Assembly: GCF_021502675.1 (NCBI RefSeq)
Contig: NZ_JAKFHA010000052.1
Span: forward strand, 1-40,840
Direction: 5' to 3'
Length of the DNA stretch: 40,840 nucleotides
Source: Yinghuangia soli
Lineage (GTDB): Bacteria > Actinomycetota > Actinomycetes > Streptomycetales > Streptomycetaceae
Notes under the pieces: generated by a model
The model's input: only the letters and a program-made list of their open reading frames with translations
Database searches by the model: none
What the model was told of the DNA's origin: nothing
Made by a program: the position numbers and the translations under genes
Part shown: positions 13,105 to 20,550 of the stretch, piece by piece
How positions within the stretch are numbered: position 1 is the first letter of the stretch
How the letters are laid out: each line of letters starts with the position of its first letter

Positions 13105-14220
13105 TCAGCCGTCGATGTGCTGGGCTGTCGCGGGTAGTTCGACCGTGACCCGGATCCCGCCCGAGGCGCGGGGGGTGAGGGTGAGCGTCCCGTCGTGTGC
13201 TCGGGTGATGGTGTTGACGATTGCCAGGCCGAGGCCCACACCCGCATGGTCGGTGCTCACGCGTTCGCTGCCGCGCTGGAACGGTTCGGTGAGTGTCGAG
13301 GCCAGCTGCGGGCTGATCTTCTCGCCGGTGTTCTCGACGGTGAGCACCACGGTCTTGGCACGGACGCTGGTGTCGACCCACACGGTCCCTTGTGCGGGCA
13401 GGTTGTGGACGATCGCGTTGTGCACGAGGTTCGTGGTCAGCTGCAGCAGAAGCGCCGGTGATCCGAGCGTGGCGGCGAAGTCGCCTCCGGTCTCGAGGGC
13501 GACGTCGTTCTTCTCCGCGAGCGGGAGCAGTGTCTCGGTGGCTTCTTCCACCAGGAGGGACAGGTCGACGGATTCCCGGGTGAACGACCGCTGACCGGCG
13601 CGGCCGAGCAGGAGCAGCGCCTCGATGAGGTCGATCGCCCGGGTGTTGACGGTGTGGAGGCGGTCGATGACCTCGTGGGTGTCGCCGTGCGGATCGGTGC
13701 GGGCCACGTCGATGAGCGTCTTCGAGATCGCCAGCGGGGTGCGCAGTTCGTGCGAGGCGTTGGCCACGAACCGCTGTTGTTCGATGGCGTGTGCTTCGAG
13801 CCGGGCCAGCATGGCGTCGAAGGCGTCGGCGAGTTCGCGGAACTCGTCCTCGCTGCCTTCGAGGCGGATGCGGTGGGCGAGCGATCCGGTCGAGACCCGG
13901 CGGGTGGCGTCGGTGATGCGGGTCAGCGGGGCGAGCATCCGGCCGGCGAGGAACCACCCGCCCGCGAGGCCGAACAGCAGCAGGAACGCCAGCACCGCCG
14001 CCGCCCTCGGCGCGAACACCTCCAGGAGGCGCGACCGGACGGGGAAGACGCTGCCGTTGCCGAAGTCGTCGTCGGGAACGATGAGCATGGCGCGGTCGGG
14101 GACGTAGCGCAGCAGGAACACCCACACCGCCGCGAGCAGCAGCAGGCCGGCCAGCACGATGAATCCGGCGTAGCTGAGGGTGAACTTGAGGCGGACGCTC
14201 GCCCCGGGCCGTCTAGGCAC
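13105..14220 (-). CDS. vanS: VanS-type sensor histidine kinase
   Basis: The start is GTG 14220, which overlaps the vanR stop by 8 bp; the product is 371 residues. Two membrane helices (about 12-38 and 71-92) frame a short outer loop of about 32 residues, as in the VanS proteins of streptomycetes. A HAMP segment follows (about 93-145), then the dimerisation box FVANASHELRTPLA with the phospho-acceptor His157, an N box (LTTNLVHNAIVHN), and G boxes (DHAGVGLGLAIV, near 310). VanS senses glycopeptide or its cell-wall effect and phosphorylates VanR; without drug it acts as a VanR phosphatase in the well-studied systems. It is co-transcribed after vanR. Confidence 0.93.
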   Translation of the reverse strand: MPRRPGASVRLKFTLSYAGFIVLAGLLLLAAVWVFLLRYVPDRAMLIVPDDDFGNGSVFPVRSRLLEVFAPRAAAVLAFLLLFGLAGGWFLAGRMLAPLTRITDATRRVSTGSLAHRIRLEGSEDEFRELADAFDAMLARLEAHAIEQQRFVANASHELRTPLAISKTLIDVARTDPHGDTHEVIDRLHTVNTRAIDLIEALLLLGRAGQRSFTRESVDLSLLVEEATETLLPLAEKNDVALETGGDFAATLGSPALLLQLTTNLVHNAIVHNLPAQGTVWVDTSVRAKTVVLTVENTGEKISPQLASTLTEPFQRGSERVSTDHAGVGLGLAIVNTITRAHDGTLTLTPRASGGIRVTVELPATAQHIDG

Positions 14221-14908
14221 GCTCTCTTCCTTGCCGACTGCCCTCCGATCGGGTGTCGATGCGGTACCCGGCGCCGGCCACGGTGGCGATGATCCCGGGT
14301 TCGCCGAGCCGCTTGCGCAGTGCCGAGACGGTGATGCGTACGGCGTTGGTGAACGGGTCGGCGTTGGCGTCCCAAGCACGTTCGAGGAGGTCTTCGGCAC
14401 TGACCACACCACCTTCGGCGGCTACGAGGACTTCGAGTACGGCGAACTGCTTCCTGGTCAGCGCCACATAGTGGCCGTCCCGGTGGACCTGTCTGCGGAA
14501 CGAGTCCAACCGCAGGCCCGCGATCTCGCGGACGGGGGGCCTGTGGTGGGCACGCCTGCGGTCGAGTGCTCGGAGCCGGAGGACGACTTCCCGGAGTTCG
14601 AACGGTTTGGTGAGGTAGTCGTCGGCACCGAGCCCGAACCCGGAGGCCTTGTCGTCGAGGCGGTCGGCGGCGGTGAGCATGAGGATCGGCATGCCGCTGC
14701 CGGAGGCGACGATGCGTTCGGCGATCTCGTCGCCGGACGGTCCGGGGACGTCGCGGTCCAGGACGGCGATGTCGTAGGTGTTGGTGCTCAGCAGTTCCAG
14801 GGCGGTGTCGCCGTCACCGGCGATGTCCGCGGCGATCGCCTCCAGGCGCAGGCCATCCCGGATGGCCTCGGCCAGATAGAGCTCGTCCTCGAGGATCAAC
14901 ACGCGCAT
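14213..14908 (-). CDS. vanR: VanR-type OmpR-family response regulator
   Basis: The 231-residue product has an N-terminal receiver domain with acidic pocket residues (LILEDEL), the phospho-acceptor Asp51 (DIAVLDRDVPGPSGD), a conserved Thr (LMLTAADR) and Lys (DDYLTKPFE), and a C-terminal winged helix (LTRKQFAVLEVLVAAEGGVVSAEDLLERAW to GYRID). It activates the resistance genes. Candidate binding sites, TATCG-like units 11 bp apart, lie before vanK, murF and vanH. Its own start is divergent from vanK with 86 bp between; the vanK-side operator may also affect vanR. Confidence 0.93.
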   Translation of the reverse strand: MRVLILEDELYLAEAIRDGLRLEAIAADIAGDGDTALELLSTNTYDIAVLDRDVPGPSGDEIAERIVASGSGMPILMLTAADRLDDKASGFGLGADDYLTKPFELREVVLRLRALDRRRAHHRPPVREIAGLRLDSFRRQVHRDGHYVALTRKQFAVLEVLVAAEGGVVSAEDLLERAWDANADPFTNAVRITVSALRKRLGEPGIIATVAGAGYRIDTRSEGSRQGRERA

Positions 14909-14932
14909 GTCGCCAGGCTACGAGCCGCCGCA

Positions 14933-14994
14933 TATTGCCGGCGTATCGAAATCGCCATACGGGACGGCAACACCGCGCAGCCTTGACTGGAGGC
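14933..14994 (+). promoter_or_regulatory. VanR-type operator/promoter cassette, copy before vanK
   Basis: TATTG (14933) and TATCG (14944) are spaced by 11 bp, followed by CATACG (14956), CAAC, and GGAGG just before the ATG. The 54 bp from GCGTATCG to the start codon align without gaps to the murF copy (40/54) and the vanH copy (41/54). Confidence 0.8.
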
Positions 14995-16254
14995 ATGTCC
15001 TACCGTGAAGCAGCACGAGCAGCGGCCCGGTCTCTGGCGTCGCTTCGCGCGCTGGAGGAGACCGGACCTGTCCGCCGAACCGCCGACTACCGGGGGGTTA
15101 CGGGTGTGCGTCCGACCGTCAGGCCGATCAGCGCCGCCGAGCACTTGGCGTACGTGCGGGCGCAGCGGTCGGTCAGTTTCCTGCAGACCCCGGCCTGGGG
15201 CGGCGTCAAGACCGAGTGGCGCAGCGAGTCCCTCGGTTGGTTCGACGGTGGGCGGCTGGTCGGCGCCGGACTCGTCCTGCACCGCCCGGTGCCGCGGCTC
15301 CGGCGCTTCACGCTGGCGTACCTGCCGGAGGGTCCGGACATCGACTGGACCGGCGAGCTCGACGTGTGGCTCGATCCGCTGGCGGCCTACCTCAAGGCAC
15401 AGGGCGCGTTCGCGATCCGGCTCGGTCCGCCGGTGCGCACGCACACGTGGAGCGCCGCCCAGGTCAAGGAGGGCCTCGCCGATCCGGGCGTCGAGCGGCT
15501 CACCGACCTGTCCGGCGGGCCGACCGGCCCGGTCGGTGCCCGCGTGACCGGGCGGCTCAGGGACGCCGGGTGGCTGCTGCAGAGCCCGCAGGACGGCTTC
15601 GGGACGGGGCATCCGCAGTTCAAGTACGAGATCCCGCTGGTCGGCCGGACGGAGGACGACCTGCTCGGAGGCATGAACCAACTCTGGCGCCGCAACATCA
15701 GGAAGGCGGCCAAGGAGGGCGTCGAGGTCACCGTCGGCGAAAACCTCGGCGAGGACCTCGGCCAGGACCTCAAGGCCTTCCACGACCTCTACGTGCACAC
15801 CGCCGAGCGCGACCGCTTCACGCCGCGGCCGCTGCGCTACTTCGAGGGCATGTTCGCGGCGCTGAGCGCCGAGGACCCCGAGCGGATCAGGCTCTACCTG
15901 GCGCGCCACCAGGGCGACTTGGTCGCCGCCGCCATCCTGGTCCGCGTCGGCGCGCATGCGTGGTACGCCTACGGCGCCTCCGCCACCGAGAAGCGCGAGG
16001 TGCGCGGTTCCAACGCCTGCCAATGGGCGATGATCCGCGATTCGCTGGCGGTCGGCTGCGACGTGTACGACCTGCGCGGCATCACCCCCACCCTCGACGC
16101 CGACGACCCGCACGTCGGGCTGATCCAGTTCAAGGCGGGCGCCGGCGGTCAGGCGGTGCGCTACACCGGCGAGTGGGACCTGCCGCTGCGGCCGACGGTC
16201 TACCGGGCCTTTGAGCTCTACATGCGGCATCACATGCGGAATCGCGGCCGATGA
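14995..16254 (+). CDS. vanK: VanK/FemX-type peptidoglycan side-chain aminoacyltransferase
   Basis: The ATG at 14995 lies six bases after GGAGG and inside the shared cassette; product 419 residues. From about residue 40 it is a FemABX protein: VRPISAAEHLAYVRAQRSVS, FLQTPAWGGVKTEWR, then two GNAT-like halves, with NQLWRRNIRKAAKEGVEV, LYVHTAERDRF, and GLIQFKAGAGGQAVRYTGEW at the C-terminal substrate site. Family members use aminoacyl-tRNA to add the cross-bridge residue (Gly in streptomycetes). VanK is the version that accepts precursors ending in D-Lac. About 35 N-terminal residues (MSYREAARAAARS...) precede the family's usual start and appear to come from the cassette; a GTG at the VRPTVRPIS segment with GGGGGG upstream is a possible older start. 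It ends 7 bp from the convergent murF stop. Confidence 0.9.
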   Translation: MSYREAARAAARSLASLRALEETGPVRRTADYRGVTGVRPTVRPISAAEHLAYVRAQRSVSFLQTPAWGGVKTEWRSESLGWFDGGRLVGAGLVLHRPVPRLRRFTLAYLPEGPDIDWTGELDVWLDPLAAYLKAQGAFAIRLGPPVRTHTWSAAQVKEGLADPGVERLTDLSGGPTGPVGARVTGRLRDAGWLLQSPQDGFGTGHPQFKYEIPLVGRTEDDLLGGMNQLWRRNIRKAAKEGVEVTVGENLGEDLGQDLKAFHDLYVHTAERDRFTPRPLRYFEGMFAALSAEDPERIRLYLARHQGDLVAAAILVRVGAHAWYAYGASATEKREVRGSNACQWAMIRDSLAVGCDVYDLRGITPTLDADDPHVGLIQFKAGAGGQAVRYTGEWDLPLRPTVYRAFELYMRHHMRNRGR

Positions 16255-16261
16255 GTGCGAA

Positions 16262-17605
16262 CTACACGAGCGCGGCCGCGACTTCGTCCAGGTTTGCGCC
16301 TCGGGAGGCCTTGACGAGCACCACATCGCCGGCGGCGAGCAGACCGCGGAGCCAGTCGGCGGCCGCGCCGTTGTCGGCGAGTACCACCCCGCGCTTCCCC
16401 GCGCCCTCGGCGATAGGCCGGGCGGCTTCGCCGACCGCGGCCACCAGGTCGGCCCGGGCGGCGGCGTACTCTCCCACGGCGCGGTGCTCGGCCTCGCCGG
16501 TGTCGCCGAGTTCGCGCATCTCGCCGAGGACGGCGATGCGGCGGCCGCCCTCGACCGCCGCCAGCGCGTCCAGGGCGGCGCGGGTCGAGTCGGGGTTGGC
16601 GTTGTAGGAGTCGTCGAGCAGGGTCGCGCCGCCGGCGAGATCGCGCAGCTCCAGGCGCCACTTCGACAGCGCGGCGGTGGCCAGCGCGGCGGCGGCCACG
16701 TCGAGGGGTACGCCGGCCGCCAGTCCCGCCGCCGCGGCGGCCGACGCGTTCAGTGCCTGGTGGGCACCCACGAGCGGCAGCGCGACGGGTACCGAGGCGG
16801 CAGCGGTTCGCAGCCTGAAGGACGGCCGGCCGAGCCGGTCCAGCGCCAGATCGAGCACCCGCACGTCGGCGCACTCCGTCCGGCCGAAGGTCAATACGGG
16901 GCCGTCGGTGAGCGAGCGCATCGCAACCACCCGGGGATCGTCGGCGTTGAGGACCGCTGTGCCGCCTGGCGCCAGGCCGCGCACCAACTCGCCCTTGGTC
17001 CTGGCGATGGCCGCGCGCGAGCCGAACTCGCCGAGGTGGGCCTGGCCGACGTTGAGGACGACGGCGATGTCGGGCGCGACCAGGCCGGTGAGCGCGGCGA
17101 TGTCGCCGACGTGGCGGGCGCCCATCTCCAGAGCGAGGAACCGGGTGGCCTCGTCGGCGCGCAGCATGGTGAGCGGCACGCCGAGTTCGTTGTTGAGCGA
17201 GCCGATCGTGGCGACCGTGGGCGCGGTGCCGGAAAGCACGGACCCCAACAGGTCCTTGGTGCCGGTCTTGCCCTGCGAGCCGGTCAGTGCGGCAACGGTC
17301 AGCCCGCGCCGCAGCCGGGCCACGACGTGTGCAGCGAGGGCCTGCAGTGCGGCCCGGACGTCTTCGACGACGACGGTGGGCAGCGGCGTGGGCCGGGAGC
17401 CGAGCACGGCGGCCGCGCCGGCCCGGGACGCCTGCTCGGCGAACCGGTGGCCGTCGACGTGCTCGCCGGCGAAGGCGACGAAGAGGCCGCCTGGTTCGGC
17501 TTGCCGGCCATCGAGCACGGCCGGCGCGGTCACTGTCACGGCGCGGTCGCCCGCGACCGTCCCGCCGACGACTTCGGCGATCTCGCCGAGGCTGAGCGGG
17601 ATCAC
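16262..17605 (-). CDS. murF: MurF-type ligase dedicated to D-Ala-D-Lac precursors
   Basis: The product (447 residues, GTG 17605) has the Mur ligase layout: N-terminal uridine-recognition domain ([14 protein letters not shown]), P-loop [14 protein letters not shown] near residue 105, central ATPase with [14 protein letters not shown] and [16 protein letters not shown], and a C-terminal domain with [17 protein letters not shown]. MurF joins the terminal dipeptide to UDP-MurNAc-tripeptide. Because it has its own copy of the van cassette, it is probably the induced enzyme that loads D-Ala-D-Lac; housekeeping murF should be elsewhere. The GTG start overlaps the stop of a 27-residue leader ORF by four bases (GTGA), so translation is probably coupled. 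Similar extra MurF enzymes are known in some glycopeptide-producer clusters. Confidence 0.9.
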
Positions 17606-17685
17606 GCCCGGGCCAGGTGGAGGCCGGCGCACGGGCGCGGGCCGACGTGGTGGACGTCGACGGAGGCTGATTCGCTGTTGGTCAT
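17602..17685 (-). CDS. 27-residue leader ORF of murF, derived from the van cassette
   Basis: ATG 17685 is preceded by GGAGG (GGAGGC-ATG) exactly as in vanK, and stands at the same distance from the operator as the vanK and vanH starts. The peptide begins MTNSESASV, close to MSYREAA (VanK) and MTYRESA (VanH), and ends [13 protein letters not shown]. Its TGA overlaps the murF GTG in GTGA. The simplest reading is that ribosomes load at the cassette and reinitiate on murF. A separate role for the peptide is not suggested by its sequence. Confidence 0.6.
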
Positions 17686-17747
17686 GCCTCCAGCCAATGC
17701 GGGGTGATGTTGCCGGAGCGTATGCGCGTTTCGATATGCGGACGACA
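17686..17747 (-). promoter_or_regulatory. VanR-type operator/promoter cassette, copy before the murF leader
   Basis: On the minus strand TGTCG (from 17747) and TATCG (from 17736) are 11 bp apart; CATACG follows from 17724 and GGAGG lies before the ATG at 17685. The distance from GCATATCG to the ATG is 54 bp, as in the other two copies; it matches the vanH copy at 42/54. The copy faces away from the vanH copy across about 60 bp. Confidence 0.8.
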
Positions 17748-17809
17748 AGCTACCGGAAAGTACCCACCGTTCGGCAGGAAATCCACCCAGGCATGACCTG
17801 TGCGCAACC

Positions 17810-17871
17810 TATCGTCGGCATATCGAAATGCGCATACGCTGCGACAACACCGTGCCGCCTTGAATGAACGC
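17810..17871 (+). promoter_or_regulatory. VanR-type operator/promoter cassette, copy before vanHAX
   Basis: TATCG at 17810 and at 17821 (11 bp apart), CATACG at 17833, and a start codon 54 bp after GCATATCG. The ribosome site is weaker here (GAATGAACGC-ATG) than in the vanK and murF copies. Confidence 0.8.
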
Positions 17872-18912
17872 ATGACGTACCGCGAATCAGCTTGCCCACC
17901 GGCCCGCCGCACGCGATCGCCGGTGCCCTTGCTCTCTTCTGCGGCCCCGACCACGGGAATCACCGTGTACGGCTGCGGGCAGGACGAGTCGGCCCTGTTC
18001 CGAGATATGGCGCCCCGCCTCGGTGTGACGCCGACGATCACCGCCGCCGCGGTGTCCGAAGCCAACGTCGGGCTGGCCCGCGGAAACCGCTGCATCAGCG
18101 TGGGTCACAAGACTCGGATCAGCAATCCCACGCTGGTTGCGCTCAGCAGGGTCGGCGTGACCTATCTTTCCACCAGAAGCATCGGATACAACCACATCGA
18201 CCTGACGTACGCGGAAAGCGCCGGCATTACCGTGGAGAATGTCGCCTATTCGCCGGACAGCGTGGCCGACTACACGCTGATGCTGATACTGATGGCGATA
18301 CGCGACGCGCAATCCGTCGTGCGCCGTATGGACCTCCACGACTACCGGCTGAACGACGTACGCGGCAAAGAGCTGCGGGACCTCACCGTCGGGGTGATCG
18401 GAACAGGGCGCATCGGCTCGGCGGTCGTCGACCGGCTGCGCGGCTTCGGCTGCCGAATGCTGGCCTGCGACAGCCGCCCCAAGAGCGATGTCGACTACGT
18501 TCCGCTCGACGAGTTGGTCCGGCGCAGCGACGTGGTGACTCTCCATACACCGCTGACCGCGGCCACCCACCACCTCCTCGATCGCCGACGGATCGAGCGG
18601 ATGAAGCCCGGCGCGATCGTCGTCAACACCGGACGCGGTGCGCTGATCGACACCGAGGCCCTGATACCGGCGCTGGAGAGCGGCCGACTGGGCGGTGCGG
18701 CGCTGGACGTCCTCGAAGGCGAGGAAGGGATCTTCTACGCCGATTGGCGGGACAGAGCCGTCGAGAGCAAGTCCCTGCTGCGGCTGCAGGAGCTGCCGAA
18801 CGTGCTGATCAGCCCGCACACCGCGTACTACACGGACCGCGCCCTGCGCGACACCGTCAAAAATTCCCTCGTCAACTGCCTGGAATTCGAAAGCAGGAAC
18901 CGGCATGGCTAG
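17872..18912 (+). CDS. vanH: VanH-type D-lactate dehydrogenase
   Basis: The 346-residue product belongs to the D-isomer-specific 2-hydroxyacid dehydrogenases. It has the NAD fingerprint VGVIGTGRIGSAV (about 188-200), catalytic Arg in NTGRGALIDTEAL, the Glu region LDVLEGEEGIF, and catalytic His in ISPHTAYYTDRAL. The early segment GITVYGCGQDESALFRDM is typical of VanH. It reduces pyruvate to D-lactate for VanA. The ATG at 17872 is the cassette start, giving about 27 residues (MTYRESACPPARR...) ahead of the usual VanH beginning; a GTG near 17921 is an alternative with no ribosome site. The gene overlaps vanA by 8 bp. Confidence 0.95.
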   Translation: MTYRESACPPARRTRSPVPLLSSAAPTTGITVYGCGQDESALFRDMAPRLGVTPTITAAAVSEANVGLARGNRCISVGHKTRISNPTLVALSRVGVTYLSTRSIGYNHIDLTYAESAGITVENVAYSPDSVADYTLMLILMAIRDAQSVVRRMDLHDYRLNDVRGKELRDLTVGVIGTGRIGSAVVDRLRGFGCRMLACDSRPKSDVDYVPLDELVRRSDVVTLHTPLTAATHHLLDRRRIERMKPGAIVVNTGRGALIDTEALIPALESGRLGGAALDVLEGEEGIFYADWRDRAVESKSLLRLQELPNVLISPHTAYYTDRALRDTVKNSLVNCLEFESRNRHG

Positions 18913-19945
18913 GCTGAAAATCGGCATCATATTCGGCGGTCACTCCGAAGAGCATCCCGTCTCCGTGAAGTCCGCGCAGGAGGTGGCCAGTCACCTCGAC
19001 CCGGAAAAGTACGAACCTTTCTATGTCGGGATCACCAGGGACGGCGTCTGGAAACTCTGTGACGGCCCCACCGCCCACTGGGAGAGCGGAAGTTGCCGCC
19101 CGGCGGTGCTGTCGCCGGACCGGGGCGTACGCGGACTGCTCGTGTTGACGCAGGGGAAATACACATCGGTCCCGTTGGACGTCCTGTTGCCCGTGCTGCA
19201 CGGCAAGCTCGGCGAAGACGGCGCGATACAAGGCCTCTTCGAGCTGTCCGGCATTCCCTATGTGGGCTGCGACGTGCAAAGCTCGGCCCTCGCCATGGAC
19301 AAGTCCCTGACCTACCTCGTCGCGCGCGCCGCCGGAATCGCCACACCGAACTTCTGGACCGTCACGGAAAACGACACGATCGATCCCGACCGGCTCTCCT
19401 ATCCGGTCTTCGTGAAGCCGGCTCGTTCCGGGTCGTCCTTCGGGGTCAGCAAGGTGTCCCGCAGCGCAGAACTGCCGACTGCGGTGGAAACGGCACGACG
19501 ATACGACGCGAAGGTGCTGGTCGAGGAGGCCGTCGCCGGCCGCGAGATAGGGTGTGCCATTCTGGGCAACGAACAGGACCTGACGGCAGGCGAGTTGGAC
19601 CACATCGCGCTGTCCGGCGGATTCTTCCGGATCCATCAGGAGGACGCGCCGGAGACTGGCTCCGAGAACTCCGTCGCAATCGTGCCCGCCGATGTCTCGG
19701 CGGAGTCGCGAGCGCGGGTCCAGGAGGCCGCGAAGTCGGTGTACCGCGCGTTGGGCTGCCGGGGGCTGGCCCGCGTGGACATGTTCCTCACGGGTGACGG
19801 AGAAGTGGTCCTCAACGAGGTCAACACCCTGCCCGGTCTGACCTCCTACAGCCGCTATCCGAGAATGATGGCGGCCGCCGGCTTGCCGCTCGGCGAAGTC
19901 CTCGACCAGTTGGTCGCGTTGGCATTGACCGGGAAGCGCCGATGA
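18905..19945 (+). CDS. vanA: D-alanine--D-lactate ligase
   Basis: The 346-residue ATP-grasp ligase joins D-Ala to D-lactate, making the depsipeptide that vancomycin binds poorly. KIGIIFGGHSEEHPVSVKSA is the N-terminal D-Ala site and YPVFVKPARSGSSFGVSKV the ATP-binding loop. The omega-loop reads GGFFRIHQEDAPETGSEN, with His244 in the same place as the His that sets VanA apart from D-Ala-D-Ala ligases (which carry Tyr). GLARVDMFL and LNEVNTLPGLTSYSRYP are the Mg/ATP and substrate segments. It overlaps vanH at the start and vanX at the stop (ATGA). Confidence 0.96.
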   Translation: MARLKIGIIFGGHSEEHPVSVKSAQEVASHLDPEKYEPFYVGITRDGVWKLCDGPTAHWESGSCRPAVLSPDRGVRGLLVLTQGKYTSVPLDVLLPVLHGKLGEDGAIQGLFELSGIPYVGCDVQSSALAMDKSLTYLVARAAGIATPNFWTVTENDTIDPDRLSYPVFVKPARSGSSFGVSKVSRSAELPTAVETARRYDAKVLVEEAVAGREIGCAILGNEQDLTAGELDHIALSGGFFRIHQEDAPETGSENSVAIVPADVSAESRARVQEAAKSVYRALGCRGLARVDMFLTGDGEVVLNEVNTLPGLTSYSRYPRMMAAAGLPLGEVLDQLVALALTGKRR

Positions 19946-20550
19946 ACGACGACTTCGTCTTCGTCGACGATTTCGCGTCCGGGATACGTTGGGACGCCAA
20001 GTACGCCACCTGGGACAACTTCACCGGCAAGCCGGTGGACGGCTACCTGGTCAACCGGATCGTCGGCACCCGGACGCTGTGCGCGGCCCTGGAGAGCGCG
20101 CGCGACAGGGCCCGGGACCTCGGCTTCGGCCTGCTCCTGTGGGACGGCTACCGCCCGCAACGCGCGGTCGACTGCTTTGTGCGCTGGCCGCAGCAGCCGG
20201 AAGACGGCCGGACGAAGCGGCGGCACTACCCGAACATCGACCGGGCCGAGATGTTCGAAAAGGGATATGTGGCCGCCAAATCAGGTCACAGCCGCGGCAG
20301 CACCGTCGACCTGACGCTCTATCACCTCGCCACCGGCGAACTCGCCGCCATGGGCGGCGACCACGACCTGATGGACTCCGCCTCACATCACGGGGCCAAG
20401 GGAATCGGCCCGATCGAGGCCGGGAACCGCCACGACCTGTGCACCATCATGACGTCCAGCGGCTTCAGCTCGTACGAGTGCGAGTGGTGGCACTACACGC
20501 TGAAAGACGAGCCGTACCCGGACACGTATTTCGACTTCCCCATCGCCTGA
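19942..20550 (+). CDS. vanX: VanX-type D-Ala-D-Ala dipeptidase
   Basis: The 202-residue zinc dipeptidase hydrolyses D-Ala-D-Ala so that only D-Ala-D-Lac enters the precursor. The metal and catalytic residues sit at the numbers known for enterococcal VanX: His116 and Asp123 in SGHSRGSTVDLTL, Glu181 and His184 in CEWWHYTL; Arg71 lies in WDGYRPQ. There is no signal peptide, as expected for a cytoplasmic enzyme. The ATG overlaps the vanA stop, completing the vanHAX operon. No hairpin was seen in the 67 bp before the convergent rhamnosidase gene. Confidence 0.96.
   Translation: MNDDFVFVDDFASGIRWDAKYATWDNFTGKPVDGYLVNRIVGTRTLCAALESARDRARDLGFGLLLWDGYRPQRAVDCFVRWPQQPEDGRTKRRHYPNIDRAEMFEKGYVAAKSGHSRGSTVDLTLYHLATGELAAMGGDHDLMDSASHHGAKGIGPIEAGNRHDLCTIMTSSGFSSYECEWWHYTLKDEPYPDTYFDFPIA

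Follow-up and report, generated by a model that had tools for sequence, protein, structure and literature searches.

A VanR-linked cassette at a fixed distance from the start codon precedes vanK, a murF leader and vanH in Yinghuangia soli and probably gives leaderless starts

The stretch of DNA analysed here (the window; 40,840 nucleotides of Yinghuangia soli contig NZ_JAKFHA010000052.1) carries a van cluster in which three starts, those of vanK, of a short leader open reading frame (ORF) before murF, and of vanH, are each preceded by a copy of one element, here termed the cassette, with operator-like repeats, a hexamer and, at a fixed distance, the start codon and first codons. The cluster is of the D-Ala-D-Lac type, having vanH, vanA, and vanX in a row and an adjoining VanR/VanS pair. 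Among the window proteins, the D_ala_D_lac model scores 596 bits (cut-off 550) and VanX 397 bits (cut-off 320); for VanH, VanR, and VanS, the top models are van models with scores under the type-specific cut-offs, VanR and VanS being nearest to the O type. The genes are as follows:

13105..14223, minus strand: vanS, sensor kinase (best model VanS-O, below cut-off)
14213..14908, minus strand: vanR, OmpR-type response regulator (best NCBIfam model vanR-O, below cut-off)
14995..16254, plus strand: vanK (FemX-like), 419 aa, beginning at the cassette ATG (MSYREAA)
16262..17605, minus strand: murF, 447 aa, from the GTG within the leader overlap
17602..17685, minus strand: murF leader ORF, 27 codons plus TGA, its stop overlapping the murF start (GTGA)
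17872..18912, plus strand: vanH, 346 aa, from the cassette ATG (MTYRESA)
18905..19945, plus strand: vanA, D-Ala-D-Lac ligase
19942..20550, plus strand: vanX, D-Ala-D-Ala dipeptidase

The cassettes lead to start codons at 14995 (plus strand, vanK), 17685 (minus strand, murF leader), and 17872 (plus strand, vanH). The original prediction held that the 54 bp before these ATGs align without gaps, and they do, with 40/54 (vanK/murF), 41/54 (vanK/vanH), and 42/54 (murF/vanH) positions identical. As was also claimed, the likeness extends past the start codon: 15–17 of 20 positions are identical at +1 to +20, about 20 nt into the ORFs, before it falls to background, and the N-termini read MSYREAA (vanK), MTNSESA (murF leader), and MTYRESA (vanH). 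Per 20-nt bin, identity is 12–18/20 across −60 to −1 and 3–10/20 in the remaining bins, with the exception of −140 to −121 in the murF/vanH comparison (16/20), where each sequence already holds part of the other promoter. A repeat finder independently recovers all three pairs, one as a 104-nt repeat (74%) and two as inverted repeats of 80 nt (80%) and 85 nt (72%). The operator units were predicted to be TATCG repeats 11 bp apart at all three starts; the spacing stands, while the upstream unit departs from TATCG at vanK (TATTG) and at the murF leader (TGTCG). The parts of the three copies are the following:

14915..14920, minus strand: vanR −10 hexamer TAGCCT, 6 nt before the vanR ATG
14933..14948, no strand assigned: VanR-box-like pair at vanK/vanR, TATTG-N6-TATCG on the plus strand, equal to CGATA-N6-CAATA toward vanR (from the sequence and the vanR upstream comparison)
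14956..14971, plus strand: vanK cassette CATACG (14956–14961) and GGCAAC (14966–14971), in the conserved columns −39 to −24 of 67 cassettes
14983..14988, plus strand: vanK cassette hexamer TTGACT, proposed −10 element
17692..17697, minus strand: murF-leader cassette hexamer TTGGCT, proposed −10 element
17709..17724, minus strand: murF-leader cassette CATACG (17724–17719) and GGCAAC (17714–17709)
17732..17747, minus strand: murF-leader cassette TGTCG-N6-TATCG
17810..17825, plus strand: vanH cassette TATCG-N6-TATCG
17833..17848, plus strand: vanH cassette CATACG (17833–17838) and GACAAC (17843–17848)
17860..17865, plus strand: vanH cassette hexamer TTGAAT, proposed −10 element

The spread of this element was followed in other genomes. 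A VanH-relative scan gave 53 loci, of which 37 (L009–L045) form, together with L063 and the window, the 39 records of the seed set. The seed weight matrix was begun from the three window copies, iterated, and included the start codon, so that this set is not independent; it gave 73 matches in 38 of the 39 records, of which 67 were kept after six had been dropped (two of L038, a repeat of L037; L021 on the minus strand; the second match of L026; and two doubtful matches, L021 at 16008 and L042 at 15282). The 67 cassettes precede vanH in 34 records (35 if the duplicate L038 is counted), 10 vanK genes, murF at 6 of 10 divergent loci, and 17 genes for other proteins, namely, VanY (9), VanJ-type Exo_endo_phos (3), VanZ (2), PhyH-family oxygenase (2), and S11 D-Ala-D-Ala carboxypeptidase (1); the cassette is thereby common to eight protein families. 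Within these 39 records, vanH has no cassette in L014, L044, L045, and L063, and neither of the additional VanK-like genes (L010, L039) has one.

A second model covers the 60 columns from −66 to −7 and excludes the start codon. Used genome-wide, as the original prediction had proposed for the motif, it gives the three window sites at E 5.4e-13 or better and no other cassette in the same genome better than E 0.8; a pattern search of that genome with up to 3 mismatches finds the window sites at 0 or 2 mismatches and nine more at 3, compared with three control matches. With the 60-column model, matches were obtained in 186 of the 391 genomes of a sample of the order (E 0.01) and in 18 of the 396 of a phylum sample (E 0.001), 5 of these 18 being from the window's own family, own genome included. 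Two phylum matches (L156 and L158) are weak and look like chance, with no start codon at the expected 6 or 7 nt past the hexamer; the other 16 loci have one. A VanR gene adjoins the match in 28 of the 30 best-scoring 3-kb loci, and the six proteins checked in phylum loci were VanZ (2) and VanY (4). The later loci comprise the best-scoring ones and 40 regions chosen from among the listed matches, and so do not represent a random selection; some of the genomes are closely related. The expectation that other actinomycete van clusters would align at these starts is thus confirmed, the same element preceding vanH, vanK, murF, vanJ, vanY, and vanZ in many actinobacteria.

In the 67 seed copies, the strongest columns are TATCG at −62 and −51 (11 bp apart), CATACG at −39 to −34, CAAC at −27 to −24, the hexamer at −12 to −7, and the start codon. 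These direct repeats about 11 bp apart, at a fixed distance from a putative −10 element, are those of an OmpR/PhoB-type box. T-37 is conserved in 98% of the copies and A-36, A-26, and A-25 in 100%. The hexamer is mostly TTGACT (37), followed by TTCACT (9), TTGAAT (5), and TTGGCT (5); when the copies are aligned on the operator, its first T is present in 98% and its last in 100%. In 152 distinct copies, the corresponding values are 99% for T-12, 95% for T-11, and 99% for T-7, frequencies that are not fully independent in the later loci because the model used to retrieve these loci contains the hexamer columns. Operator and start are separated by one of two distances that differ by one base, found in 48 and 19 of the 67 seed cassettes, and the additional base of the longer class sits between the hexamer and the start. 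The hexamer therefore keeps a constant position relative to the operator and not to the start codon, which fits a promoter element and not a ribosome signal.

The start codon itself is held almost as tightly. Of 74 later copies that differ from every seed copy, 73 carry an ATG or GTG 6 nt (70) or 7 nt (3) past the hexamer, the single one without it being L107. With the first 54 columns as the basis of selection and the phylum loci added, the start lies at one of these two positions in 85 of 86 copies versus 5.6% by chance. In the seed set, the rule is missed only by three of the dropped matches: L021 on the minus strand and the second match of L026 have no start codon, and L021 at 16008 has one 2 nt early that opens a 3-codon ORF.

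The original prediction also placed a ribosome site in the cassette, between promoter and first codons. A usable Shine-Dalgarno sequence (a match of at least 4 nt at a spacing of 4–10 nt) is present in 0/67 seed and 0/73 later cassettes, and the GGAGG in vanK and murF that might be taken for one lies 1 nt from the ATG. The same test at control starts finds such a match at 19/36 VanA, 19/33 VanS, and 5/35 VanX genes. The prediction of one cassette thus holds for the promoter and first codons, which form one unit that adjoins vanR, and is not supported for the ribosome site. Two other candidate signals were rejected: TTGACT as a −35 element with its −10 inside the ORF, as no TA..T stands out by eye in the conserved columns where it would be needed, and the C before the ATG as a mark of the transcription start, as it is common in controls too (VanA 31/36, VanS 24/33).

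Further information comes from vanR, which diverges from the same operator. TANNNT occurs within −14 to −7 of the vanR start at 25/25 seed and 45/45 later loci and at 0/104 VanA, VanX, and VanS controls. In 50 distinct vanR regions, each offering 90 nt of upstream sequence and a VanR match that begins at residue 1 and scores above 100 bits (above 200 for seed loci), the arrangement CGATA-N6-CGATA-N12-TANNNT-N6/7-start is found 50 times, with the paired units scoring 8–10/10. The CGATA units stand 17 and 28 nt upstream of TANNNT, the proximal one at exactly 17 nt in 50/50, and a usable Shine-Dalgarno sequence precedes vanR at only 1 of 25 seed loci. As this operator–TANNNT–start arrangement holds throughout, the vanR transcript is very likely leaderless, to judge by its geometry. 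On the cassette side, the first bases of GCATACG and GGCAAC lie 28 and 17 nt upstream of TTNNNT, which equals the spacing of the CGATA units from TANNNT before vanR.

The same arrangement may be used a further time. The 10 divergent murF genes include 6 with a cassette and 3, in L009, L010, and L031, that have none of their own; these three have TAGCGT, TAGCGT, and TTCACT, respectively, 7, 7, and 6 nt before a start, and these hexamers lie, with spacing judged by eye, 13, 13, and 12 nt past CGATA in the vanH operator read in reverse, which is the vanR distance or one base away from it. Here, murF appears to use the vanH operator in reverse, so that one operator would serve two divergent promoters. 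The search also gave a second candidate (TTCGCT) farther upstream in L009 and L010, and the tenth divergent murF, in L035, has neither a cassette nor a hexamer at the reversed operator.

The start codon of the cassette is used in two ways. In the seed set, 34/34 VanH and 8/10 VanK cassettes are in frame with the gene, and two vanK cassettes and all six murF cassettes open a short ORF of 11 to 38 codons. In 8/8 of the kept cases, the end of the short ORF and the start of the next gene overlap by 4 nt (ATGA or GTGA); two dropped rows (L021 at 16008 and L042 at 15282) have short ORFs without such an overlap. The 73 later cassettes comprise 50 in-frame fusions, 10 with a 4-nt overlap, 1 with an overlap of 8 nt, 4 running into an unidentified gene, and 8 others, in two of which (L072 and L085) a VanY match precedes VanJ; murF is fused twice, overlapping once, and in the class of others once. 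The 4-nt overlap occurs in 10 of 15 later ORFs under 100 codons, which makes 18/23 with the seed set. Under a null that keeps the gene's own start, the expectation is 0.28 per case, or 0.42 if the ORF is out of frame, and 18/23 corresponds to p = 0.0004. In the window, the stop of the murF leader overlaps the murF start in this manner (GTGA), and from this we infer translational coupling of murF to the leader. The longest ORF for murF (16262–17632) would begin at GTG 17632, a start that is probably unused, GTG 17605 at the leader stop fitting better. Elsewhere in the window's genus, for which three genomes were available, vanK of G002 (L063) is preceded by a leader ORF of 38 codons instead of starting in frame, and its vanH is without a cassette, while G001 has no VanH at E 1e-80.

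Together, these results make it probable that each of the three window starts is a VanR-controlled promoter whose transcription begins most likely at the start codon itself, giving a leaderless mRNA, an interpretation drawn from the geometry of the aligned sequences. Phosphorylated VanR would bind two pairs of half sites spaced by 11 bp, the first being TATCG/TATCG, which would also serve the divergent vanR, and the second lying around CATACG and GGCAAC. The second pair would stand 28 and 17 nt upstream of TTNNNT, acting as the −10 element, with the start codon 6 or 7 nt on. Since such a promoter would set the start of the RNA, insertions and deletions between operator and ATG would hardly be tolerated, and unrelated genes would align without gaps for this reason. 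A leaderless promoter would moreover bring its own start codon, so that a gene acquiring it would gain either an N-terminal extension (vanK, vanH) or a leader ORF (murF); the cassette would be ancient and common to the VanR-linked genes of many actinobacteria.

Several observations weigh against this. The canonical TANNNT is mostly replaced by TTNNNT at 6–7 nt before the cassette start; the position fits and the second base does not, the A at −11 being absent. The C before the ATG, fitting as it is for a transcription start, does not discriminate, and VanX too is often without a Shine-Dalgarno match. In any single case, the 4-nt overlap of a leader ORF is only moderately improbable, as an A after ATG or GTG is enough to create TGA. 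Leaderless transcripts are under-represented among the glycopeptide-responsive genes of Streptomyces coelicolor in the accessible passages of PMC7947799, which are silent on how the van genes start. The most direct objection comes from a reporter: in PMC9779433, the S. coelicolor vanH promoter is induced about 20-fold by vancomycin (and a vanJ promoter fragment about 40-fold), and the match of the published reverse primer, placed by comparison with L033 and L099, ends at CATACG + 7 nt, about 27 nt before the ATG, which leaves the hexamer off the fragment. The absence of the hexamer from an inducible reporter means that a start near CATACG, farther upstream, is possible unless the vector supplied a −10 element; one possibility for the latter is the SpeI site fused in the reporter, which offers TAGTNN about one base off the canonical operator distance.

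Such an upstream start would correspond to a promoter with a short leader, in which TACGNN within CATACG is the −10 element and the RNA starts near the AA at −26/−25, with a 25-nt leader that has no Shine-Dalgarno sequence. This explanation, which would account for the inducible reporter and for the conservation of T-37, A-36, A-26, and A-25, is unlikely, since it leaves unexplained the TTNNNT hexamer and its fixed register with the operator, the near absence of insertions and deletions down to the ATG (85/86), the lack of usable Shine-Dalgarno sequences (0/67 and 0/73), and the mirrored geometry of vanR (50/50).

The start at the ATG, which we prefer, can be compared with known systems. In S. 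coelicolor, the VanRS-controlled promoters of vanJ, vanK, and vanHAX belong to the same genes and the same regulator as in the window, and those of vanJ and vanH are vancomycin-inducible according to passages of PMC6001138 and PMC9779433; in these passages, an operator consensus, a fixed operator-to-start geometry, and a leaderless start are not given. About 21% of the primary transcription starts of S. coelicolor are leaderless, with a −10 element of TANNNT (PMC4895711). The cassette resembles actinobacterial leaderless mRNAs in having no usable Shine-Dalgarno sequence and a start codon 6–7 nt past a hexamer, and it differs from them in that the hexamer is TTNNNT and in that unrelated genes share the start, which is linked to an activator box. 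In the phoA promoter of Escherichia coli, the PhoB repeats lie 28 and 17 nt upstream of the −10 element. Like PhoB/PhoP-type boxes, the cassette has 11-bp direct repeats at a fixed distance upstream of −10; unlike them, it has two tandem pairs, one of which faces and serves the divergent vanR. In enterococci (VanA/VanB type), an OmpR-family VanR likewise activates vanHAX from the vanH promoter; the cassette model was built from actinobacterial loci plus L012, which is binned as Chloroflexi.

The question remains as to how three genes came to share one element. The original prediction was that regulation had spread by the copying of promoter, ribosome site, and first codons as one cassette in front of three genes, here read as recent duplication among vanK, murF, and vanH in this lineage. 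There are signs that could be read in this way: the first codons in the window are 57–76% alike over +4 to +24 versus about 49% between genomes, and the vanH and murF copies each rank second to the other, as the only relatively close pair, and form an inverted repeat. A recent duplication should, however, leave the copies of one genome closest to each other, and this is not what is found, within-genome pairs being 0.77 alike (n = 41) versus 0.76 (n = 636) for between-genome pairs of different genes, where the former take in genes not named by BLAST and the latter exclude them. The vanK copy of the window has as its six nearest relatives the vanK copies of other genomes, while the vanH copy of the same genome stands 14th and the murF copy 55th of 66, which already disfavours copying for vanK, and the same unit precedes the same genes across many genera. 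Recent local duplication is thus very unlikely as a general account, and the claim of copying inside this cluster is not upheld; murF alone could be a later inverted copy of the vanH cassette. Because the within-genome copies are no more alike and the vanK copy is nearest to the vanK copies of other genomes, the cassette looks old and maintained, and its gap-free alignment seems better explained by a geometric constraint holding in many genera.

Constraint might even suffice without any shared descent. In this explanation, the geometry of VanR and RNA polymerase would force the upstream likeness, and the first codons would be selected for an open leaderless start. The half sites and the hexamer are indeed the most conserved parts, and the third base is G or C in 0.65 of codons 2–8 versus 0.87 of codons 31–130. 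For glutamate, GAA is used 34 times and GAG 8 times in codons 2–8, versus 88 and 231 times in codons 31–130, a preference that counts in favour of the leaderless start itself. Selection on the leaderless start could therefore contribute to the likeness of the first codons. As the sole cause, it is rather improbable, since the less constrained stretch from CAAC to the hexamer and codons 2–8 stay alike between unrelated genes. Starts resembling MSYSEPAR are shared by VanH and VanK proteins, some of the VanY proteins, and the murF leaders, and because these proteins are unrelated, common descent of the whole unit is likely.

A broader, tentative proposal, to which we would give somewhat less than even credence, is that VanR control spreads in Actinobacteria as a portable module of box, TTNNNT −10 element, start codon, and first codons, new targets gaining either an N-terminal tag or a leader ORF coupled by a 4-nt overlap; TTNNNT may serve to silence these promoters when VanR is not bound, vanR keeping TANNNT. 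If this were true, leaderless starts would constrain the growth of a regulon. The results also suggest a way by which a leaderless promoter could attach to new genes, by an in-frame tag or a coupled leader ORF, and they indicate that gap-free likeness of promoters and first codons need not imply recent copying. They provide a precise and testable rule for the VanR regulon, in the form of a 60-bp model that finds a site in 186/391 order genomes and predicts start codons within a base (85/86), and they suggest that the annotated starts and promoters of van genes be revisited.

Control of van genes by VanRS (PMC6001138, PMC9739842) and the structure of VanR (PMC8329863) are already known, and van clusters have been mapped over Actinobacteria in PMC8698665, where the word “promoter” is absent from the main text. 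A literature search of partial coverage, without Hong 2004, gave no description of this operator, of its fixed distance to the start, or of leaderless van genes. The novelty of the operator geometry and of leaderless van genes is not certain, since Hong 2004, the first characterisation of the S. coelicolor system and the likeliest source, lies outside this coverage.

Some observations concern single loci. In many order genomes (L072–L101), a single cassette match (E 0.01, strict filters) is found, frequently with vanRS on one side and a divergent vanY and/or vanJ on the other; these loci are 3 kb, too short to reveal a vanHAX elsewhere in the genome. In L150 and L152, the cassette stands before a VanZ-family gene. 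A contig binned as Chloroflexi (L012:1991-2057) has an actinobacterial-looking vanHA start, in which CATACG, CAAC, the hexamer, and the SEPAR start are intact and the TATCG pair is degenerate, for which contamination, transfer, and decay are alternatives. In two Solirubrobacter loci (L024:14493-15260 and L037:14759-15535), the cassette precedes a gene for a PhyH-family oxygenase, which is a possible further member of the VanR regulon.

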